From positions 62,001-126,000 of the forward strand of contig NZ_JACEFB010000012.1 in assembly GCF_013694095.1 (NCBI RefSeq): a stretch of 64,000 nucleotides of DNA, in the 5' to 3' direction. Below are positions 49,210 to 58,848 of the stretch, piece by piece. Position 1 is the first letter of the stretch; each line of letters opens with the position of its first letter. Both the position numbers and the translations under genes were made by a program. The notes beneath the pieces were generated by a model, which did not search any database, was not told the DNA's origin, and was given only the letters and a program-made list of their open reading frames with translations. This DNA is from Thermogemmata fonticola (GTDB taxonomy: Bacteria > Planctomycetota > Planctomycetia > Gemmatales > Gemmataceae).

Positions 49210-52185
49210 TCATTTCCCGGCTGCCTGCAACTCGCGCAGGTTTTCTTCCAAGGCGGCAATTTGCCTTGTCAGGTCATGGAGCAATTCTCGTTGTTGCTGC
49301 ACGATCTCCGGCGGCGCATTCTGGACAAATTTGTCGTTGGCCAACTTGGACTGGACCGTCTCGCACGCCTTGCGTTTTTCGGCCAGTTGTTTTTCGAGCC
49401 GGCGTACTTCAGCCGCCAGATCGATCAGACCGGCGAGGGGGACATACGCCTCAAATTGGGGGTGAACGATGCTGCCAGCCAATGAGGGTTTCTGGGTTGC
49501 CGCCCCCGCTTGTAATTGGCCGATACCTGCCAAGGGAGCCAAAAAGCTTGCTACCGACTGGAGGTCCTCCGCCGTTTGTTCACTGCATTTGACGAATACA
49601 TCGATTTTTGTCCGTTCGTCCATTTGATAACGGCCTCGAAGTTCGCGGATTCCCCGAACCAAGTCTTGTAGCAAGGCAAAACGTTGTTCCACTTGAGGAT
49701 CGATCCATTGAGGCGGCAGTAGCGGCCAGCGGGCGATCACGACGCTTTCCTCAGCGGGGGAGGGGGCCGGTAAGCCCCGGTGAGGGGCGACCTGACCCAG
49801 GGCCTGCCATAGCGACTCGGCGACGAACGGCATGATCGGTTGCACCAGGCGCAAAATGGCATCGAGAACACCTACAAGCACTCGCTGAACCAAAGGACGT
49901 GATGCTTCTTCTTTCAGCCTTCCTTTAGATAATTCGATGTACCAGTCGCAGAACTCGGACCAGATGAAGTCGTAGAGGAGGCGGCTGACTTCGCTGAAGC
50001 GGTAGGCTTCGAGAGCGGCAGTAACATCCTGAGCCGTCCGGCTTAAGCGGGAGAGAATCCAGCGGTCTTCTGTGGGCAAATCGGACCAGGTCAGCAGGGC
50101 CGGGGAGTAGCCCTCCAGATTCAGGAGCAGGAAGCGGGTGGCATTCCAGAGTTTGTTGGCGAAGTTGCGTCCAACTTCAAAGCGATCAGAGCCTTGTTTG
50201 GCGGTAGGCAGCTCCGGGTCGTCGGAAGGCCAGGGGCCGCCGGGACGGAAGGGCTTTTTACACTGCGGGCAGGTGATTTTCCGCGTGCGCATGTACATAT
50301 GTTCTTGTCGCACAGGAATCTGGGCCTGGCAGTGCGGGCAGATGTTGACCACCGGCATCCGGCTATCCTGTGTCTCTGTTGCCAAATGGACCATGCCGTA
50401 ACGCAGGGCATCCACTCCGTAGATGTCAATAACGTCGAGGGGATCGACGCCGTTGCCTTTGGTCTTGCTCATGGTTTCCCCAAAACCGTCGAGCACCTTG
50501 GGGTGAATGTAAACGTGGTGGAAAGGTACTTCCCCGACGTTGTAGAGGCTGGCCAGTACCATCCGTGCCACCCACAGGGTGATGATGTCCCGGCTGGTGA
50601 CCAGGACGGAGGTGGGGTAGTAGTACGGCCGCAATTGCTGCCAGTCCGGGGCGACACGATCGGGCCGGTCTTCCGGCAATGCAGGACCGGGCCAGCCGAG
50701 GGTACTGTGGGGCCACAAAGCCGAAGAAAACCAGGTGTCCAGTACGTCTTCGTCCTGGCGGATGGAGACACCCGGGCCGAACATGCTCGTGTCGATGTCC
50801 TGACGAGAACAAACCAGCCACTCTTCCCGTTCCGCATCATAGTGTGCCACCAGATCAGGTCCTTCGGCGGCGCGGATAGCGTCCTCCGGCCCGCGCACAT
50901 ACCACACGGGAATCCGATGCCCCCACCACAGTTGGCGGCTGATACACCAGTCCCGCTTCTCCGCTAGCCAGGATAGATAACCTTCCTTGTATCGTTCGGG
51001 GAAGAAACGGACTTTGCCGCTCGTCACTGCATCAATTGCTAGTTGGGCCAAACCAGGCTTGCCATCGTCGCGGTCTCCCATGCGGATGAACCACTGGTCG
51101 GAAAGATACGGTTCGATGGGTGTCTTGCTGCGGTCGCTGTATTTCAAGGGGATGAGCCGCTCTTCGCATCCTTCGTAAAAGCCCAATTCTTGCATCTTGC
51201 GGATAACTGCCTCGCGGGCGGCATAGCGGTCCATGCCGGCAAACTCGCCGCCATTCTCGTTGAGGGTGCCATCGGGGTTGAGGATGTTGATCATTCCGAT
51301 TTCCGGATGGCGCTGCCAGCAGGCGTAGTCATTCGGGTCATGGGCGGGGGTGACCTTCACGCAGCCGGTTCCCAGCTTCGGATCCGCGAGAATCGCGTCG
51401 GCGATGATGGGAATGCGCCGGCCGTTGAGAGGGATGATTGCCGTTTTGCCGATCAGATGTTGATAGCGGGGATCGGCAGGATGGACACAGACAGCGGTGT
51501 CGCCCAACATGGTTTCGGGGCGGGTCGTGCTGAAGCGGATATAGGTGTCGGGCATCCCCTCTACGGGATATTTGAACGTCCAGAAGAAGCCGGGGGTTTC
51601 TTCGGTGTAGGTTTCATCATCGGCAACTGAGGTTTGCAGTTGCGTATCCCAGTTAACCAGGCGCTTACCGCGGTAGATGTAACCGTCCCGAAACATGCGA
51701 AAGAAGGTTTCCCGCACCGCACGGGCGCAGACAGGGTCCAATGTGAATCGGGTCCGGCGGTAGTCGCAGCTTGCGCCCATCTGTTGCAACTGGGCCAGAA
51801 TACGAGCCTCGTACTTGTCCTTCCACGCCCAGATGCGTTGCACGAGCGCCTCGCGGCCCAAGTCATGCCGGGTCTTTTTCTCTTGCTGGTAGATGAGGCG
51901 TTCCACGACCGACTGGGTAGCAATCCCGGCGTGATCTGTGCCAGGAATCCACAAGGCGTTATACCCTTGCATGCGACGCCAGCGGATCAACACATCCTGA
52001 AGCGTGTTATTCAGAGCATGCCCCATGTGCAGGGCACCCGTGACATTCGGGGGAGGAATCACGATGGTGAAGGCTGGCCGCTGCGGATCGGGATCGCTGT
52101 GAAAATATCCCCGTTCCTCCCAGAAACGCAGCCACTGCTGCTGGGCCAGTTTCGGATCGTAGGCTTTGGGTAACTCCATGGCCAT
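49210..52185 (-). CDS. valS: Valyl-tRNA synthetase with zinc-ribbon insert
   Basis: Predicted 991 residues; ATG at 52185 is likely, with 52224 also in frame. Motifs: PPPNVTGALHMGHALNN (HIGH), the editing domain TTRPETMLGDTAVCV, PYLSDQWFIRM, and the KMSKS loop in variant form ETMSKTKGNG. The C-terminal coiled coil that holds tRNA is present (AEVRRLEKQLAEKRK). Between the KMSKS loop and NFANKLWNATRF, around residues 610-655, is an insert with CPHC and CPQC pairs, which can form a zinc ribbon and is not part of the E. coli type. It charges tRNA-Val. The next gene on the same strand, upstream, is cimA, 47 bases away. Confidence 0.95.
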   Translation of the reverse strand: MAMELPKAYDPKLAQQQWLRFWEERGYFHSDPDPQRPAFTIVIPPPNVTGALHMGHALNNTLQDVLIRWRRMQGYNALWIPGTDHAGIATQSVVERLIYQQEKKTRHDLGREALVQRIWAWKDKYEARILAQLQQMGASCDYRRTRFTLDPVCARAVRETFFRMFRDGYIYRGKRLVNWDTQLQTSVADDETYTEETPGFFWTFKYPVEGMPDTYIRFSTTRPETMLGDTAVCVHPADPRYQHLIGKTAIIPLNGRRIPIIADAILADPKLGTGCVKVTPAHDPNDYACWQRHPEIGMINILNPDGTLNENGGEFAGMDRYAAREAVIRKMQELGFYEGCEERLIPLKYSDRSKTPIEPYLSDQWFIRMGDRDDGKPGLAQLAIDAVTSGKVRFFPERYKEGYLSWLAEKRDWCISRQLWWGHRIPVWYVRGPEDAIRAAEGPDLVAHYDAEREEWLVCSRQDIDTSMFGPGVSIRQDEDVLDTWFSSALWPHSTLGWPGPALPEDRPDRVAPDWQQLRPYYYPTSVLVTSRDIITLWVARMVLASLYNVGEVPFHHVYIHPKVLDGFGETMSKTKGNGVDPLDVIDIYGVDALRYGMVHLATETQDSRMPVVNICPHCQAQIPVRQEHMYMRTRKITCPQCKKPFRPGGPWPSDDPELPTAKQGSDRFEVGRNFANKLWNATRFLLLNLEGYSPALLTWSDLPTEDRWILSRLSRTAQDVTAALEAYRFSEVSRLLYDFIWSEFCDWYIELSKGRLKEEASRPLVQRVLVGVLDAILRLVQPIMPFVAESLWQALGQVAPHRGLPAPSPAEESVVIARWPLLPPQWIDPQVEQRFALLQDLVRGIRELRGRYQMDERTKIDVFVKCSEQTAEDLQSVASFLAPLAGIGQLQAGAATQKPSLAGSIVHPQFEAYVPLAGLIDLAAEVRRLEKQLAEKRKACETVQSKLANDKFVQNAPPEIVQQQRELLHDLTRQIAALEENLRELQAAGK

Positions 52186-52232
52186 ATCTGCGCTTGCTCC
52201 TGCTCTGAACTCAGAGAAAAACATCCGACGGA

Positions 52233-53834
52233 TTAGACATCCGAACCGCCCGCTGGGTGATCGCGCCCGGCGCCTTCAGTTTCGCTATCTTTGAACAGCT
52301 TGTATTCAATGCTGTCCACGAGGGCCAACCAACTGGCTTCGATGATGTTTTCGCTCACGCCTACGGTCCCCCAGACATCGGTGGCATCGCGGGATTCGAT
52401 GACGACGCGGACGCGGGCGGCTGTACCTTCCCGAGCGTTGACCACACGCACCTTGTAATCGACCAGTTGCATCTCCTGCAAGCGGGGATAGGCGGGAGTC
52501 AGCGCTTTCCGCAACGCTCCGTCCAAGGCATTGACCGGACCATCGCCTTCGCTGACCGTATGGGCAATCTGATCTCCGATGCGGACCTTGACCGTTGCCT
52601 CTGTCACGGGTGCGCGTTCGCTGTCATGTTCGATGTTGACCCGGTAAGCCAAGCGTTCAAACCAGGGGCGGTATAATCCCGCCGCTTTCTTGACGAGCAG
52701 GTCGAAGGAGGCCTCCGCCGCTTCGAACTCGTACCCCGCATTTTCCAGGTCCTGCACCTGATTGAGTATCTGCGTCAACAGGGCCTTGTCATGATGCAGG
52801 CGGTATTTCATGGTTTTGGTCAGAATGGTCGAATGGCCGGATAACTCAGAGACCAGAATGCGCCGTTCATTGCCGACCATTTCGGGCCGGATGTGTTCGT
52901 AAGTGGCTGGATCGCGGTTGACGGCATGTGTGTGCATTCCTCCTTTGTGGGCAAAGGCGCTGCTGCCGACAAAGGGTTGATTGGAACGGAAATTCATATT
53001 AGCCAACTCGTACACATAGCGGGAGATTTCCGTGAGTCGCTGTAAACTCGACGGTTGCAACACCTCGTAACCGTACTTCAGAGCTAAATTGGCAATGATG
53101 CTGATCAGGTCAGCATTGCCGCAGCGTTCGCCAAGGCCGTTGATAGTCCCCTGCACCTGCGTGGCTCCCGCTCGGACGGCGGCGAGGGAATTGGCCACGG
53201 CCAAATCGCAATCATTGTGGCAGTGAATGCCGATGGCACAGGGAAGCGCTCGTCGCACGGCGGCCACCGCCTCGGCGATCATCTCCGGCATCGTTCCTCC
53301 GTTGGTGTCACACAGGATGATGGTGGATGCACCACCCTCTGCCGCCGCTTGCACCGTTTTCAAGGCATAATCGGGATTGGCCTTCCAGCCGTCGAAGAAA
53401 TGCTCGGCATCGTAAAACACCTCCCGGCCCTGACGCCGGCAATACCGAACCGAATCCTCGATCATGCGCAGGTTCTCATCTAAAGTCGTTCCGAGGACGT
53501 GAGTGACGTGATAATCCCACGTTTTGCCGACCAGAGTGACCACAGCAGTCCCGGCGCCCAAAAGCGCTCGCAGGCCGGTATCGTCCTCCACCGCGGTGTG
53601 TTTCTTACGCGTCATGCCAAAGGCCACGACACGGGCATGGCGTAACGTCAACTCCTGAACGGCTTGGAAATACTCGGCATCCTTCGGATTGGAAAGCGGA
53701 TACCCTCCCTCAATGTAATCGATACCGAACTCGTCCAATCGGCGCGTGAGCAAGAGCTTATCCTGAAGGGAGAAATTGACGCCTTCTCCCTGACTCCCAT
53801 CACGCAATGTTGTGTCGTATATAACGATCCGCAT
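52233..53834 (-). CDS. cimA: Citramalate synthase
   Basis: Predicted 533 residues; ATG 53834 has GGAG nine bases upstream. The protein starts [20 protein letters not shown], the metal-binding DTTLRDG of the isopropylmalate/citramalate synthase family, with [16 protein letters not shown] and [20 protein letters not shown] plus [13 protein letters not shown]. The C-terminal LeuA-type allosteric domain is present (about residues 390-515). CimA condenses pyruvate and acetyl-CoA into citramalate, the threonine-independent entry to isoleucine. A CimA rather than LeuA call rests on the length and the [23 protein letters not shown] pattern and is probable. A leader with Val/Ile codons and a terminator lies directly upstream. 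Confidence 0.88.
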
Positions 53835-53883
53835 ATCCCGCTTCTCCTGGTCCCTTCTTCCAGAGCGAGAGTCTGACACTCAC

Positions 53884-53912
53884 GAAAAAACCCCGGCGAT
53901 GTTCACCGGGGT
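53884..53912 (-). terminator. Intrinsic terminator in the cimA leader
   Basis: On the minus strand ACCCCGG pairs with CCGGGGT across a nine-base loop and is followed by six T. It lies 50 bases before the cimA start, with no room for a full promoter after it, so it should control read-through into cimA. Confidence 0.8.
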
Positions 53913-53955
53913 CGTTGTCATTCTGGTATCACCTTGGCGGCCCTGTCCGACCCCG
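53907..53955 (-). promoter_or_regulatory. Candidate antiterminator pairing of the cimA attenuator
   Basis: On the minus strand CGGGGTCG (53955-53948) is perfectly complementary to CGACCCCG (53914-53907). The second segment contains most of the 5' arm of the terminator, so the two structures exclude each other. The first segment begins five bases after the stop codon of the leader ORF, where a terminating ribosome would cover it and a ribosome stalled on the Val codons would not. Confidence 0.6.
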
Positions 53956-53960
53956 CTCCC

Positions 53961-54050
53961 TCACCCAACGCCGGCAATCACGACCACGTGGCGCGCTCCC
54001 CGCGCCGCGGCAATGGCGATTCCAACGGCCTGATGAGTGATCTTCGGCAC
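53961..54050 (-). CDS. Candidate leader peptide of cimA, Val/Ile rich
   Basis: A GTG at 54050, eight bases after GGAGGA, opens a 29-codon ORF (an ATG at 54077 is in frame but lies inside the -10 box). Nine of 29 residues are Val or Ile and none is Leu; the end reads HVVVIAGVG, with GTG GTC GTG ATT in a row. It is followed by an antiterminator/terminator pair and cimA, an enzyme of isoleucine synthesis. The layout matches ribosome-mediated attenuation of ilv/leu operons. It could also be an unrelated small ORF. A product was not searched for. Confidence 0.6.
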   Translation of the reverse strand: MPKITHQAVGIAIAAARGARHVVVIAGVG

Positions 54051-54075
54051 CGGACAGTTCCTCCGCTTCTCTGGC

Positions 54076-54103
54076 ATACTAGCACAACAGCCCCGCTTGT
54101 CCA
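54076..54103 (-). promoter_or_regulatory. Promoter of the cimA leader
   Basis: Read on the minus strand, TGGACA (54103-54098) and TAGTAT (54081-54076) are 16 bases apart, with an extended -10 TG one base before. The [15 protein letters not shown] start near 54069, a few bases before the leader's ribosome site. Confidence 0.5.
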
Positions 54104-54488
54104 GTTCCGACTTCTCGTTGAGTCTCCCATTCCGCCGCACAGGACCTGCCGCAGTTGTGACTTTCCATTCCTTCCTGCACCACTCGATCCCCCCTCCTTA
54201 CGTCTCACGCTTTGGGTCGGTTGAGCCTCCGCGGTTCCCATATACTGTAAATATGAACCATAAATCGGCAGAAGTCAAATCCATTTCTGGAAATTTTTTC
54301 CGCTCCGTTAGGTGCGAAGAAAAACGTGTTCTTTCCTGCTAGTATTCCCTGTCCAGCCTCTCGTCGATTTTGTTGGGGAGACCTCGCCGTGACGGGACGC
54401 ACCGGAAGGCTGCGTAAGGAAACCAGAAGGCTGCTAGAGGAGGAGGAATGGAGGGGCGGTGCCACAGGGACGATGGCAAGAAACCTAC
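54104..54488. other. Intergenic region upstream of cimA leader
   Basis: About 385 bases with no credible gene; the open frames are low-complexity and lack ribosome sites. Confidence 0.45.
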
Positions 54489-54543
54489 AAAAAATCATCG
54501 CCCGTGTGGGAGGTAGGCAAAAAGGGCGATTCCCACACGGGCG
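54489..54543 (-). terminator. Strong intrinsic terminator after a small basic ORF
   Basis: On the minus strand CGCCCGTGTGGGA pairs perfectly over 13 bases with TCCCACACGGGCG around a 19-base loop, followed within four bases by six T. It lies 24 bases after the stop of the 41-codon ORF at 54568. Confidence 0.85.
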
Positions 54544-54567
54544 GCGTTCCGTAGGCGAACCGGAACT

Positions 54568-54693
54568 TTATTTCCACTCTAGCGATAATTTGGGCTTACC
54601 AAAACTCTTTTTATCGCGTTTTTTGAGTTTCTGTGTTGTTCCCCTGCTGCCAATAGAGCTTACCGCAATCCGTGTGCCATAACCCCTCGACAT
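54568..54693 (-). CDS. Candidate 41-residue basic protein
   Basis: An ATG at 54693 opens a 41-codon frame, MSRGYGTRIAVSSIGSRGTT followed by a Lys/Arg-rich end with KLKKRDKKSFGKPK. The ribosome site is weak (GAG six bases before). A strong terminator 24 bases downstream on the same strand argues for a real [14 protein letters not shown] ending here. Several ribosome-associated or nucleic-acid-binding small proteins have such composition. The ORF has an upstream in-frame ATG at 54774 without support. I recognise no family. Confidence 0.4.
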   Translation of the reverse strand: MSRGYGTRIAVSSIGSRGTTQKLKKRDKKSFGKPKLSLEWK

Positions 54694-54838
54694 TGTCTCA
54701 ATTCGCTGCAACTTCTTCCGCAACAAAAAGTTATTTGTAATTGCACTCCATTCGTTTCTCGGACTTATGCGCATTCCATAGCTGTCTGTTTTTTCGACAT
54801 TTCCCCGACATCTGTCGAAAAATTCGCCGAAAAAATTC

Positions 54839-54866
54839 TTGACTTCTTCCCGTCGACCGCTATTAT
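54839..54866 (+). promoter_or_regulatory. Promoter of a candidate small RNA
   Basis: TTGACT at 54839-54844 and TATTAT at 54861-54866 are separated by 16 bases. Predicted start is near 54873, and a strong terminator follows 60 bases later. Confidence 0.6.
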
Positions 54867-54872
54867 GCTAAT

Positions 54873-54938
54873 AGACCGGTTGCGATCTCTGAGCTGAATG
54901 GGCGACGGTTCAGGGGTCAGCGACCGGTCGCCTTTTTT
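54873..54938 (+). ncRNA. Candidate small noncoding RNA, about 66 nt
   Basis: Between a promoter and an intrinsic terminator there is no room for a gene. The terminator stem is GGCGAC (54901-54906) with GTCGCC (54927-54932), extended by GGTT/GACC after a bulge, then six T. Near the 5' end ACCGGTTGC can instead pair with GCGACCGGT of the terminator's 3' half (eight Watson-Crick pairs and one G-U), so two alternative folds are possible. No gene follows on this strand for over 500 bases, which favours a standalone RNA over a riboswitch. Confidence 0.5.
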
Positions 54939-55528
54939 GTTACCCCACGACCTCTCCTCACGTTCCTTGGGTGTCTTGTTACCGCAGGAGAGACATCTAA
55001 ACAATTCCCTCCTTCTTTGGGCCGTAACATCTGGGATACATCACACGACATAATGTGGACATGAGCCTGGCCTACTGGGCTTTCACCTAGGCAGCATGCC
55101 TCAGGGAGAATACGAGTCCGATGTAGAAAGTTACCAGAAGTATTTTTCTTAGGCGGCATCGACTGCCTTACCTCGGTTCCAATAAGGCTAGGTCTTCCTG
55201 TATCCCCCTGACAATTCATGCTCTTATTGGTCGTTAGATTCCAGCTCAAAGTTCCACGGAAGTGCAAATTTTCCAAGAAGATCGATTATGCTGAGACAAT
55301 AATTTGGTACCCAACGGGCCTCTTCACCACAGAAAACAGGACTGATACCGTTTTCCTCCCGATGCGGTGAGGTGTGTAACTCCCTTTCCCATCAACCGAA
55401 TGATTCTCGCAACGGTGTTTCTGTATGGGGCATGGGAGTAATCGCGGAAACCAGGGAGGGGTGGGAATTGGCTGGGTTAGAGTTCCCAACCCCCACGCTG
55501 TCCTTGCGCCATCTCCGGCACGTCTGGC
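54939..55528. other. Intergenic region, no gene seen
   Basis: About 590 bases right of the small RNA. The frames that are open lack ribosome sites and sensible composition. The last 100 bases adjoin the decayed surface-protein gene and may hold its terminator, which was not found. Confidence 0.45.
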
Positions 55529-56532
55529 TCAACTTACCGCGATCGCCCGCGAGAGGACCTGCAAGCCGTTCCCCAAGCGGGCTACCAAACGGTAACGTCC
55601 CGGCTGGGACAGCACCAGGTCGCCAAACGTCGCCAAGCGTTAGCACTCGTCCGCTTGACCAGCATCCCGGCCCGCTGCCCGATAGCAACCTGAGCCGCAC
55701 CGCCACATTCGGCAGCCGTACCGCATTCCCAAACTGATCCCGCAACTGCACCTGCAGCCGGAACCGCTGGTCCACACTCACCGTCGCCGGCGGCTGAATC
55801 TTGAACACCAACTGGCCCAAGGGTCCCGGATCGTTCACCAATGAGAAGCTGGCGTTGAGACTTCCCACGGTTGCCGTGACAGTGTAGCTGCCCGCCACGG
55901 TATTGGTACTGGCATTCCCTGAGGCTTGGCCGTTAGCATCCGTCGTCACCGTGATGGTGCTGTTGCCACTAAATAAGGACTGGCCCCATTGCTGGGAGCG
56001 GTGAAGGTGGCAGAGACACCTTCCATCGGCTCACCGAACTGATCCAACACCTGAACCACTAAGGGAGTGCCGAAGGAGTTGCTCACCGTCGTGCTTTGAT
56101 TGTTGCCATTGGTAATGGTCAGCGTGGTCGTGATCGCCGTTCGCCACAACTCTGTTCCGTGGCTTCCATCATCGGCACAGAAAAACAGCGTTCCGTTCAC
56201 GTTGATCAAGTTCCGGGGGTTGGCGCTGCCGCTGGGATTGATGTCGACCATGCGATAGGTGCCCACCGTCGTCCCATCCGTCCGCCACAGTTCCCGATCC
56301 CCACTGGCATCCGTCGCAGCAAAGTAAATGACGCCGTTGACCTCGGTGAAGTAGGCTGGCTAGGACGCTCCCGAACCGGTGGCGATGTCTTGGATCACTC
56401 TCACCCCTAGGACCGACGGTGTGGTGCGATCTTCCAATGCTTCGAAATGCAGGGTCGTTGCCCGCCGGAGGGTGCGAGCAGAACGGGCGGAAAACAACCA
56501 ACGCCTCCAAGAGAGGGAAGCCGCGACTTCAT
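55529..56532 (-). pseudogene. Decayed surface protein with ELWR repeats and Ig-like domain
   Basis: The start ATG 56532 has GGAG seven bases upstream. After MKSRLPS a two-base frame change near a CTCTCT run leads to WRRWLFSARSARTLRRATTLHFEALEDRTTPS, the N-terminal pattern of exported Gemmataceae surface proteins. A TAG at 56360-56362 interrupts the frame before PAYFTEVNGVIYF and two copies of GDRELWRTDGTTVGT/GTELWRT. A frame change near 55946 leads into an Ig-like domain VTTDANGQASGNA...LVNDPGPLG, and another near 55650 leads to FGDLVLSQPGRYRLVA and stop at 55529. At least three frame changes and one stop mean it is not expressed whole. Confidence 0.75.
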
Positions 56533-56879: not shown

Positions 56880-56952
56880 GGCCCTATCGTCTAGTGGTCT
56901 AGGACGTAGCCCTCTCAAGGCTAAAACTCGGGTTCGAATCCCGATAGGGTCA
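56880..56952 (+). tRNA. tRNA-Glu(CTC)
   Basis: A complete 73-base cloverleaf. The acceptor stem pairs GGCCCTA with TAGGGTC (one G-U), the anticodon loop CTCTCAA lies between TAGCC and GGCTA and gives CTC, reading GAG, and the T-arm is GGGTTCGAATCCC. The stop codon of the convergent integrase gene lies inside it, at 56921-56923. Its 3' half is the likely attachment site. Confidence 0.96.
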
Positions 56953-58351
56953 ACTTTTGACTTGGCACCGTACTGCACGATGATGCAACACGATGCGTAA
57001 CATCCTCAATTCCAAGCTCTTGCGACTCCCTGCGCCATATAGCACACTGTACTTCCGTATTCTGCTGTGCCGCAAACTGTGCCGCCTGTGTGCCGCTTTC
57101 TGTGCCGCCTGACAAGATGGGAGTATGGAGACAAGATGCCGATCTTGTCGGCGGTGGGACCGCTCCCAGCGGACCGCCCCACTGGCGGGCGAGGTCGAAG
57201 TGGGCATCCGTGACCTGGAGATAGTGATCTTGGGCTACCGCCGCCGTATTCCCCAGCCACTCACAGACAACGTGATCCGGAAAAGTGTTGGCCAGGTCCG
57301 TCTGAGCCGAGGCCCGCAGGTTGTGCCACAGGCGCGGCCAGGGCCGGATTCCCGCCCGCTTGAGCATCCGCAGGAAGTGTGTCCGCAGATTCACGCTCCC
57401 CCAGAAGCCCCTATCCGCCGCCTTGGCACTCTCCCGCTGCCGCAAGTGGTGAAAGATGTAGATGCTCCCCTCCGGGGCTTGATCCCAGACTTCCTGGAGA
57501 TACGGCAGCACTTGCGGTAGAATCGGCACCACCCGAAAGCCCTTGCCGCTCCGCTCAGTTTTCGGACTGGGGACTCGGAGGCGCTGTTTCTCCCAATCCA
57601 CACAGTCCCACGTGAGAGAGAATGGCTCACTCGGCACTCGCAAGCCCAAGTAGCGAGCAAGAGCCAGGAGCAAGCGCCACTCCGCCGATGGGGCTTGTTC
57701 CCGGATCAGCCGCTCTATTACGTCAGCGGGAACATAAGCCTGGCGATCCCGATTGCGGGCCTCCGGTCGCTTGATCCCCGCGAAGGGACTCTCTGCAATC
57801 AGTTTCTGACGCACGGCGTCGGCAAAGATGCTGCGACAATGCCCTAGTCGCCGATGCACCGTCGCCGGAGCCAGGGCCTTGGGCTTTTTGGGTTGCCGCG
57901 GCGAACGTCCCCCCGCCAGCAGCCATTTGCGAAAGTCGTCAGCCTGACCTGCTGTGATGGAATCGATCCGGCAATCCTCCCCGAAGTAAGTTAGCAGATT
58001 CCGGACAGTCTGAGCAATCACGCCCCGACTGGCCTCTTTGACGTGCGTGTGCCGCTCCAGATAGGACTGGAGAAACTCCCCCAGCGTCATGCACTTCGGC
58101 GCTTCGACAAGCCCCAGCTTCACCAGCTTCTCGCGCAGCTCGCCATGCAATTCCTTCAGCCACGTTGCCGTGTCTGGGGGAATTGGCAAGCCGCGAACCT
58201 GAGCCGCGAGTAAAGCTTCGATATGGATAGCGATAGCTTGAGCTGTTCGCTTGTCGCACTTGCCCAGCCGCACCGTTTTCCGCTTCCCATCGCGCGGGTC
58301 AAGGAACAGGATGCGCTTGCGACCGTTGGCATCATTCCCAATGCTGGCCAT
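56921..58351 (-). CDS. Tyrosine recombinase (integrase)
   Basis: Predicted 476 residues; ATG 58351 has GGAGG five bases upstream, and the longer frame to 58528 is not coding-like. An N-terminal arm-binding/core-binding part (to about residue 175) precedes the catalytic domain. Expected catalytic residues: Arg near residue 238 in LGLRVPSEPF, Lys in SPKTERSGKG, His and Arg in LWHNLRAS near 343, and the nucleophile Tyr in AQDHYLQ near 376. The last 100 residues are low in structure and end in SGFEPEF, encoded within tRNA-Glu. It should integrate and excise the element there. Part of the tail reappears as a scrap at 29583. Confidence 0.93.
   Translation of the reverse strand: MASIGNDANGRKRILFLDPRDGKRKTVRLGKCDKRTAQAIAIHIEALLAAQVRGLPIPPDTATWLKELHGELREKLVKLGLVEAPKCMTLGEFLQSYLERHTHVKEASRGVIAQTVRNLLTYFGEDCRIDSITAGQADDFRKWLLAGGRSPRQPKKPKALAPATVHRRLGHCRSIFADAVRQKLIAESPFAGIKRPEARNRDRQAYVPADVIERLIREQAPSAEWRLLLALARYLGLRVPSEPFSLTWDCVDWEKQRLRVPSPKTERSGKGFRVVPILPQVLPYLQEVWDQAPEGSIYIFHHLRQRESAKAADRGFWGSVNLRTHFLRMLKRAGIRPWPRLWHNLRASAQTDLANTFPDHVVCEWLGNTAAVAQDHYLQVTDAHFDLARQWGGPLGAVPPPTRSASCLHTPILSGGTESGTQAAQFAAQQNTEVQCAIWRRESQELGIEDVTHRVASSCSTVPSQKLTLSGFEPEF
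57154..57171 (-). repeat. Single copy of the 18-bp CGCTGGGAGCGGTCCCAC repeat
   Basis: The reverse complement of this exact 18-mer occurs within the integrase gene, where it encodes PLGAVPP. Multiple copies lie at 62797 and 63039 in the same element. Confidence 0.85.
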
Positions 58352-58413
58352 AGGTGCCTCCGAAAACACAGAGTACCACGGGAAGGAAGGGGGAACAAGC
58401 CGGGGCGAGGGGA

Positions 58414-58848
58414 TTATTTTTTCCGGCGCGGGAGGCGATCCGAAAGATGAAAAGTGTTGATCAACTCCCGCATCCGCTGGAGCCAGCCCTCCAGCCACTC
58501 TTTCTCGTGCCACTGGTAATACAAGCACTCGACCTCCAGGTCACCCCGAATCCCCCGCCGGTTGGCGGCCTGCCACATGGCCAGGTCAAAATCAGCCAGC
58601 GCCTCCCTGAGTTGGAACCAACGGTCGCGGCACTTTTGCACGTCGGCTGCTGGCGGGGCGTCAGCCGCGGCGGCGAGCCATTGGAGCCATTCGGGGTGGG
58701 CATGCAGGCGGCGCGCCGCTTCCAGCAACTCCCCTTCCAGCCCCCATTCACTCTCCACTGGCGTTTGCCGCACTTTCGACAAAACGCCTGCGGCCAGCAA
58801 CTTCCGAATCACGGGAACGGCTTCGGTTTTGTTCAACGGCTTCGTCAT
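58414..58848 (-). CDS. Hypothetical protein, integrated element
   Basis: Predicted 144 residues; ATG 58848 has AGGAGG five bases upstream. It is helical and charged with many Trp and Leu residues (PEWLQWLAAAADAPP, then LYYQWHEKEWLEGWLQRMREL). No known motif. It is 62 bases from the integrase gene downstream on the same strand and next to the repeat cluster, so it may be a small accessory or excision factor, by position only. Confidence 0.7.
   Translation of the reverse strand: MTKPLNKTEAVPVIRKLLAAGVLSKVRQTPVESEWGLEGELLEAARRLHAHPEWLQWLAAAADAPPAADVQKCRDRWFQLREALADFDLAMWQAANRRGIRGDLEVECLYYQWHEKEWLEGWLQRMRELINTFHLSDRLPRRKK

Follow-up and report, generated by a model that had tools for sequence, protein, structure and literature searches.

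The ilvGMEDA and ilvBN operons of enterobacteria carry Ile/Val (ilv) leader attenuators. Candidate attenuators of ilvB, leuS and trp have also been described in Actinobacteria (PMC1262725), and the passages of this actinobacterial survey on those leaders are the closest comparative cases to the locus reported here. Its full text contains 0 mentions each of cimA, valS, citramalate and planctomycet. No report of cimA attenuation, or of classical attenuation in Planctomycetes, was found in the open-access literature searched. Judging from its sequence and from the corresponding regions of relatives, the leader of the Thermogemmata fonticola citramalate synthase gene is very probably a ribosome-mediated (classical) transcription attenuator of a cimA-valS operon.

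Results

Leader elements upstream of cimA

The window analyzed is a 64,000-nucleotide stretch of the T. fonticola genome (G000, 4.8 Mb). An initial annotation had placed a series of elements, from a promoter to cimA, on its minus strand, and all of them were located in the sequence at the claimed positions. These elements and those added by the present analysis are as follows.

54076..54103 (-), promoter-like site TGGACA-N16-TAGTAT (TGGACA 54103-54098, TAGTAT 54081-54076), located in the sequence and by threshold scan
54059..54064 (-), Shine-Dalgarno-like GGAGGA of the leader ORF, located in the sequence
54048..54057 (-), putative region 1 (protector), pairing with 53952-53943 in the free RNA and not conserved as a rule
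53961..54050 (-), leader ORF with GTG start, 29 codons plus TGA, Ile/Val-rich, ending HVVVIAGVG
54012..54014 (-), ATT Ile codon ending 6 nt before the in-ORF hairpin, with Ile at this place in 39/39 hairpin leaders
53991..54005 (-), in-ORF hairpin GCGCG-GGGAG-CGCGC (in relatives mostly GCGCA-GGGAG-UGCGC)
53979..53987 (-), Val codon run GTG GTC GTG, GTGGTCGTG, located in the sequence
53948..53955 (-), antiterminator segment CGGGGTCG, 5 bases past the leader TGA, from sequence and pairing tests
53884..53914 (-), terminator, with CGACCCCG at 53914-53907, the hairpin at 53913-53889 and then the T run to 53884
52233..53834 (-), cimA, citramalate synthase (TIGR00977, 721 bits, cut-off 450)
49210..52185 (-), valS, valine-tRNA ligase (TIGR00422, 920 bits, cut-off 612)

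The leader ORF contains four Ile and five Val codons, the GTG start not being counted, and the ATG of cimA lies at 53834, 50 bases downstream of the terminator T run. Because the leader frame stays open upstream, as a 59-aa ORF from a GTG at 54140, the leader start was chosen by the promoter and the ribosome site; both this start codon and the promoter are predicted. Scans of positions 52000-56000 gave five promoter-like sites against 2.0 expected and five terminators against 4.3 expected, so that the window alone proves little and the comparison with relatives decides. The cimA leader terminator, with 11 pairs, had the most among the five terminators scanned. The threshold scan revealed no promoter-like site on the minus strand between 53884 and 53834. 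The initial annotation had missed valS behind cimA, the hairpin at 54005-53991 and a possible protector pairing (54057-54048 with 53952-53943).

Elsewhere in the window, an ORF with phage integrase domains (PF00589, PF13102) at 56921-58528 (-) extends at its end into a tRNA gene at 56880-56952 (+), and the region 56880-58528 looks like an integration site.

Conservation of the leader among relatives

CimA was searched in 99 relatives and in 95 genomes of the family, and the first sample comprised 101 cimA upstream regions from 100 genomes. A leader was called by script in 69 of the 101 regions on either of two criteria, the diagnostic hairpin within the ORF (35 leaders) or an Ile/Val-rich ORF that precedes a terminator (34). 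A terminator was found by script in 66 of the 69, the others being hairpin leaders (L005, L037, L083). By family, leaders were present in 58/81 regions of the window's own family (f1), 3/4 of f2, 7/7 of f4, 1/1 of f8, 0/7 of f3 and 0/1 of f5. No leader was detected by script in 32/101 regions, including all seven examined of f3, nor in 24 of the 79 regions with valS behind cimA. Among 15 further cimA regions, which were kept out of the main statistics, seven were picked out by the ORF-plus-terminator rule (f6 5/7, f5 2/2, f4 0/2 with both just under the threshold, f3 0/3, f1 0/1). The family leader loci have named counterparts, among them Limnoglobus roseus, with its leader at L116.

The leader peptides outside the hairpin segment have little in common except Ile/Val content, and the same-genus relative G001 (L003) has another leader peptide, without the in-ORF hairpin. 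The terminator follows the leader stop at 20-53 nt (median 30.5) and precedes cimA by 20 to 245 nt, depending on the leader.

Two observations concern single loci. In genus g17, L023 and L099 have GC-rich inverted repeats before cimA instead of a leader, perhaps repeat-element insertions. A Gemmata-type leader also precedes cimA on contig JAIXLE010000161.1 (L126), titled Bacteroidales bacterium; its peptide is identical to that of G020 (L152), and the title is probably wrong.

Chance controls and codon content

The ORF-plus-terminator rule, which does not use the hairpin criterion and whose threshold was set after inspection of these regions, selected 57/100 cimA regions compared to 0/300 dinucleotide shuffles and 1/100 reverse complements. 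With the terminator kept and the upstream part shuffled, 0-3 of 66 were selected, compared to 57/66 real regions. Terminators were present in 73/100 cimA regions versus 3, 4 and 0/100 shuffled ones, and promoter-like sites (at least 9/12) preceded 49/69 leaders versus 0-6 in mononucleotide shuffles.

In the 35 leaders defined by the hairpin, Ile and Val accounted for 222 of 665 codons in frame (33%), compared to 39 and 26 (6% and 4%) in the other frames. Across the 69 leaders, half of which were selected by composition, Val, Ile and Leu made up 19.6%, 15.9% and 2.0% of in-frame codons, respectively, and Val and Ile 1-3% of codons in the other frames. The ratio of ATT to ATC was 156:86 in leaders versus 298:1282 in cimA genes.

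As a control, 30 leuA loci yielded Leu leaders in 21 cases and Ile/Val leaders in one; under the same rules, with the threshold of the Leu rule set after viewing the sequences, cimA regions gave 57/101 Ile/Val leaders and 0/101 Leu leaders. Codon content thus follows the pathway. The leuA regions (L189-L218, 30 genomes) with Leu-rich leader ORFs before a terminator include, for example, MANLLLLLGLLLTLG; such leaders also occur in families without a cimA leader, so leuA attenuation seems common in these bacteria. The leuA genes of T. fonticola itself (L205) and of the same genus (L207) are outside the 21. The former (L002/L205, contig C14) has an ORF that ends in DLHLLRCGRGGFAVQTA and, on visual inspection, a GC-rich hairpin upstream of the gene, but the Leu rule did not select it. 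For ilvB, ilvC and leuA of this genome, the script found no terminator over 420 nt upstream of the profile match and the rule selected none, so the same leader on any of these three genes was ruled out.

The in-ORF hairpin and the invariant Ile codon

A hairpin GCGC-N7-GCGY was found in 39 of the 69 leaders, in 31 of them as GCGCAGGGAGTGCGY; the other 30 have an Ile/Val ORF before the terminator without such a hairpin. In all 39, exactly 6 nt separate it from an invariant Ile codon upstream. This third codon before the hairpin is Ile in 39/39 and ATT in 38/39 leaders, cimA genes favouring ATC by about 4:1, and the codon two further upstream is Ile in 31/39. The hairpin is in frame in 27/27 leaders whose ORF was found by composition alone (12/39 were not found in this way); the full count of 39/39 is partly circular, since 35 ORFs were set by the frame of the hairpin. 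Third-position changes occur in the first and fourth codons ahead of the hairpin, which itself hardly varies; conservation there thus extends beyond the peptide to the RNA. Covariation is thin: among the five pairs, three are invariant, one has G-U in 4/39 and one varies on both sides (A-U 32, G-C 4, broken C-U 3). Ile codons lie at a median of 17 codons from the stop and Val codons at 7 in the 35 hairpin-defined leaders, whereas both lie at a median of 9 in the leaders not so defined.

The exact pattern GCGCRGGGAGYGCGC had 44 matches in the 95 family genomes. Twenty-eight of these are GCGCAGGGAGTGCGC, of which 25 stand before cimA, one (G035) is in a leader cut by a contig end and two are inside long open frames without cimA. 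The other 16 comprise three at cimA (G000, G017, G043) and 13 elsewhere by coordinates, seven of these 13 having been inspected. In the named collection, 17 of 25 matches were before cimA, one was at a contig end and seven belonged to other bacteria, where cimA does not follow.

In known cases of hairpin-paused ribosomes, such as frameshifting sites, the stem likewise lies about 6 nt from the decoded codon. We propose that the hairpin turns the distant Ile codon into a gauge; the fixed Ile codon before the conserved hairpin is a likely second stall site besides the Val run, and the combination of codon and hairpin may offer a new means of sharpening a stall site. Alternatively, the hairpin may serve polymerase pausing or CsrA binding.

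If the hairpin were a CsrA site, the leader could be mainly a protein-controlled switch in which the Ile/Val ORF is secondary. The core of CsrA sites is A-N-GGA, which the hairpin loop AGGGAG fits in most relatives, although the variant in the window is without the first A. csrA is present in 95/95 family genomes and, being in every genome, does not discriminate. A hairpin of this shape is found in only 39 of 69 leaders, and the remaining 30 have the Ile/Val ORF and terminator without it; moreover, it is in frame in all 27 composition-found ORFs and stands behind an Ile codon, and a CsrA site would need neither. We therefore consider a mainly CsrA-controlled leader unlikely.

Antiterminator, terminator and protector pairings

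Pairing of the segment after the leader stop with its own terminator arm reached -17.0 kcal/mol compared to -14.2 (sd 0.35) for permuted partners (n=66), and 0/5000 permutations were as good. In genus g13, the segment overlaps the stop codon and the pairing looked weak with the first search range. With the range widened to 15 nt before the stop after the first result had been seen, as used in the later pairing tests, one leader per genus (29 genera) gave -18.5 for own versus -15.5 (sd 0.52) for permuted partners, with 0/2000 in each of 20 draws. Single antiterminators had a mean z of -1.65 against dinucleotide shuffles and were below -1 in 45/66. At least six antiterminator pairs were present in 66/66 leaders, a count without a null of its own. 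Both helices, antiterminator and terminator, show changes on both sides among relatives.

The paired segment mostly starts within a few nucleotides of the leader stop and, given the usual footprint, would thus be covered by a ribosome that has reached the stop. By energies alone on the full RNA, the terminator dominates (mean pairing 0.80 for its 5' arm versus 0.06 for the antiterminator), and the attenuation model thus depends on kinetics.

In the free RNA of the window, the post-stop segment folds back on the start region as a protector-like helix, which, if formed, would favour termination without leader translation. Across leaders, the protector helix had a mean z of -0.25 against shuffles, being below -1.5 in 10/66, and its own pairing was -19.0 versus -17.3 (sd 0.37) for permuted partners. 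A family-wide protector helix was not supported by the shuffles; a strong protector appeared in single cases only (z below -2 in L001, L022, L024, L069, L071, L093 and L109).

The initial annotation had suggested a ribosome-mediated attenuator of cimA and proposed its comparison with related cimA regions. The suggestion held up in that comparison: the ORF, its Ile/Val codons, the terminator and the exclusive pairing are conserved in relatives, the pairing with changes on both sides.

The cimA-valS operon and leader Val codons

With the ATG as chosen, valS starts 47 nt after cimA on the same strand. The regulated unit would accordingly be cimA plus valS, extending beyond the cimA gene named by the initial annotation. 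To relate leader codons to the operon, valS was scored as present if it shared the strand of cimA and lay no more than about 2 kb away, giving 55 leaders with valS and 11 without; L018, L054 and L093 were dropped, the position of valS being unknown there. The mean number of leader Val codons was 4.0 with valS and 1.2 without (p = 2e-5). By genus, the level up to which these statistics are corrected for kinship, it was 3.6 versus 1.4 (20 with valS, 8 without; p = 0.0065). Ile codons were not significantly different (3.3 with valS versus 4.5 without, p = 0.07; by genus p = 0.57). Exceptions were L017, with five Val codons and without valS, and L003, L021, L031 and L069, with one Val codon each and with valS. 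The link indicates that leader codons track operon content, and in the simplest reading the leader would sense Ile for cimA and Val for valS.

In 20 regions of valS genes not directly behind cimA, a terminator was found in 3/20 and the Ile/Val rule selected 0/20; among these regions, L183 is actually cimA-valS, L175 is behind a cimA end and L173 is 4.8 kb behind. A Val leader of its own on separate valS genes was rejected. One of the three regions with a terminator, L178, has an ORF with five Val codons (YVSVTGVVVYLMLYRMYPPE), which looks like the end of a longer gene.

The dependence of codon content on pathway and operon content also bears on two other roles of the leader ORF, namely a re-initiation booster of cimA translation, as has been proposed for leader ORFs in a passage of PMC4833913, or a functional small protein, the terminator being a processing or insulating hairpin. 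Such codon content speaks against both, as do the variable terminator-to-cimA distance, the scant similarity of the peptides outside the hairpin segment apart from Ile/Val content, and the match of the post-stop segment to its own terminator. We regard these roles as highly improbable. A T-box, a riboswitch or another RNA that binds tRNA or a ligand and acts without leader translation would likewise sense Ile or Val with a terminator/antiterminator pair, but it is hardly credible and was rejected, since conservation concerns the codons of a single frame, the others being at background level, and Rfam gave no match to another regulator (only two tRNAs in the whole window at the gathering threshold; at E up to 5 in 53800-54200, six matches to sRNA and lncRNA families, all scoring well short of the cut-offs).

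Discussion

From these observations we infer the following course of events for the cimA-valS attenuator. RNA polymerase would start at about 54069 and make the leader, with a ribosome translating the 29-codon ORF at the same time. When both Ile-tRNA and Val-tRNA are charged, this ribosome would reach the stop and cover the segment at 53955-53948; the terminator hairpin could then form, and transcription would end near 53885. A shortage of either tRNA would hold the ribosome back, at the Ile codons (54020-54012) or at the Val/Ile run (53987-53976). This would leave the segment free to pair with the terminator 5' arm, the terminator would be blocked, and cimA and valS would be made. The hairpin at 54005-53991 probably lengthens ribosome dwell on the Ile codon or paces the polymerase. 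On balance, we lean towards a two-gauge leader in Gemmata-type bacteria, with the Ile codon and hairpin as one gauge and Val codons near the stop as the other if valS is present, together with transcription-translation coupling.

The cimA and leuA attenuators would work only with a ribosome close behind the polymerase, so coupling would be needed for these operons, and the species-specific pairing kept across the family suggests that ribosomes follow the polymerase there. This matters because the proposed spatial separation concerns the same family. Transcription is described as separated from translation in Gemmata obscuriglobus in statements citing Gottshall 2014 (PMC6212462, PMC5287468), the membranes of this species are described as topologically ordinary in a passage of PMC3660258, and Planctomycetota is not in the list of phyla classed with runaway transcription given in PMC13323073.

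The leader described here shares with the ilv leaders of enterobacteria an ORF with codons for the end product, exclusive terminator and antiterminator structures, and regulatory codons before the stop. It differs in its target, cimA, whose product opens the citramalate route of isoleucine synthesis, plus valS, in its phylum, Planctomycetota, in the in-ORF hairpin at a fixed distance from an Ile codon, and in that no conserved protector was found. The actinobacterial candidates, as outlined in PMC1262725, likewise have runs of regulatory codons followed by terminators, also before the synthetase genes leuS and trpS. The actinobacterial ilvB leader ORFs are described there as overlapping the terminator, with a mode called unclear (PMC1262725), whereas the present leader keeps its ORF, free segment and terminator apart, and permutation tests back the pairing. 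The Staphylococcus aureus ilvD attenuator, in the account given in PMC5794164, also has Leu and Ile leader codons and a predicted terminator/antiterminator before a branched-chain operon; it differs in being Leu-rich, in its genes and phylum, and in having mutant support (PMC5794164). Attenuators of the pheST type, mentioned in PMC1262725, resemble the present one in acting on an aminoacyl-tRNA synthetase gene, but here a single leader would serve a biosynthetic gene together with the synthetase for a different amino acid, and it contains codons for both amino acids. Attenuation at this locus is thus ordinary in principle, and new in its gene, its operon logic, its phylum and its codon-hairpin element.
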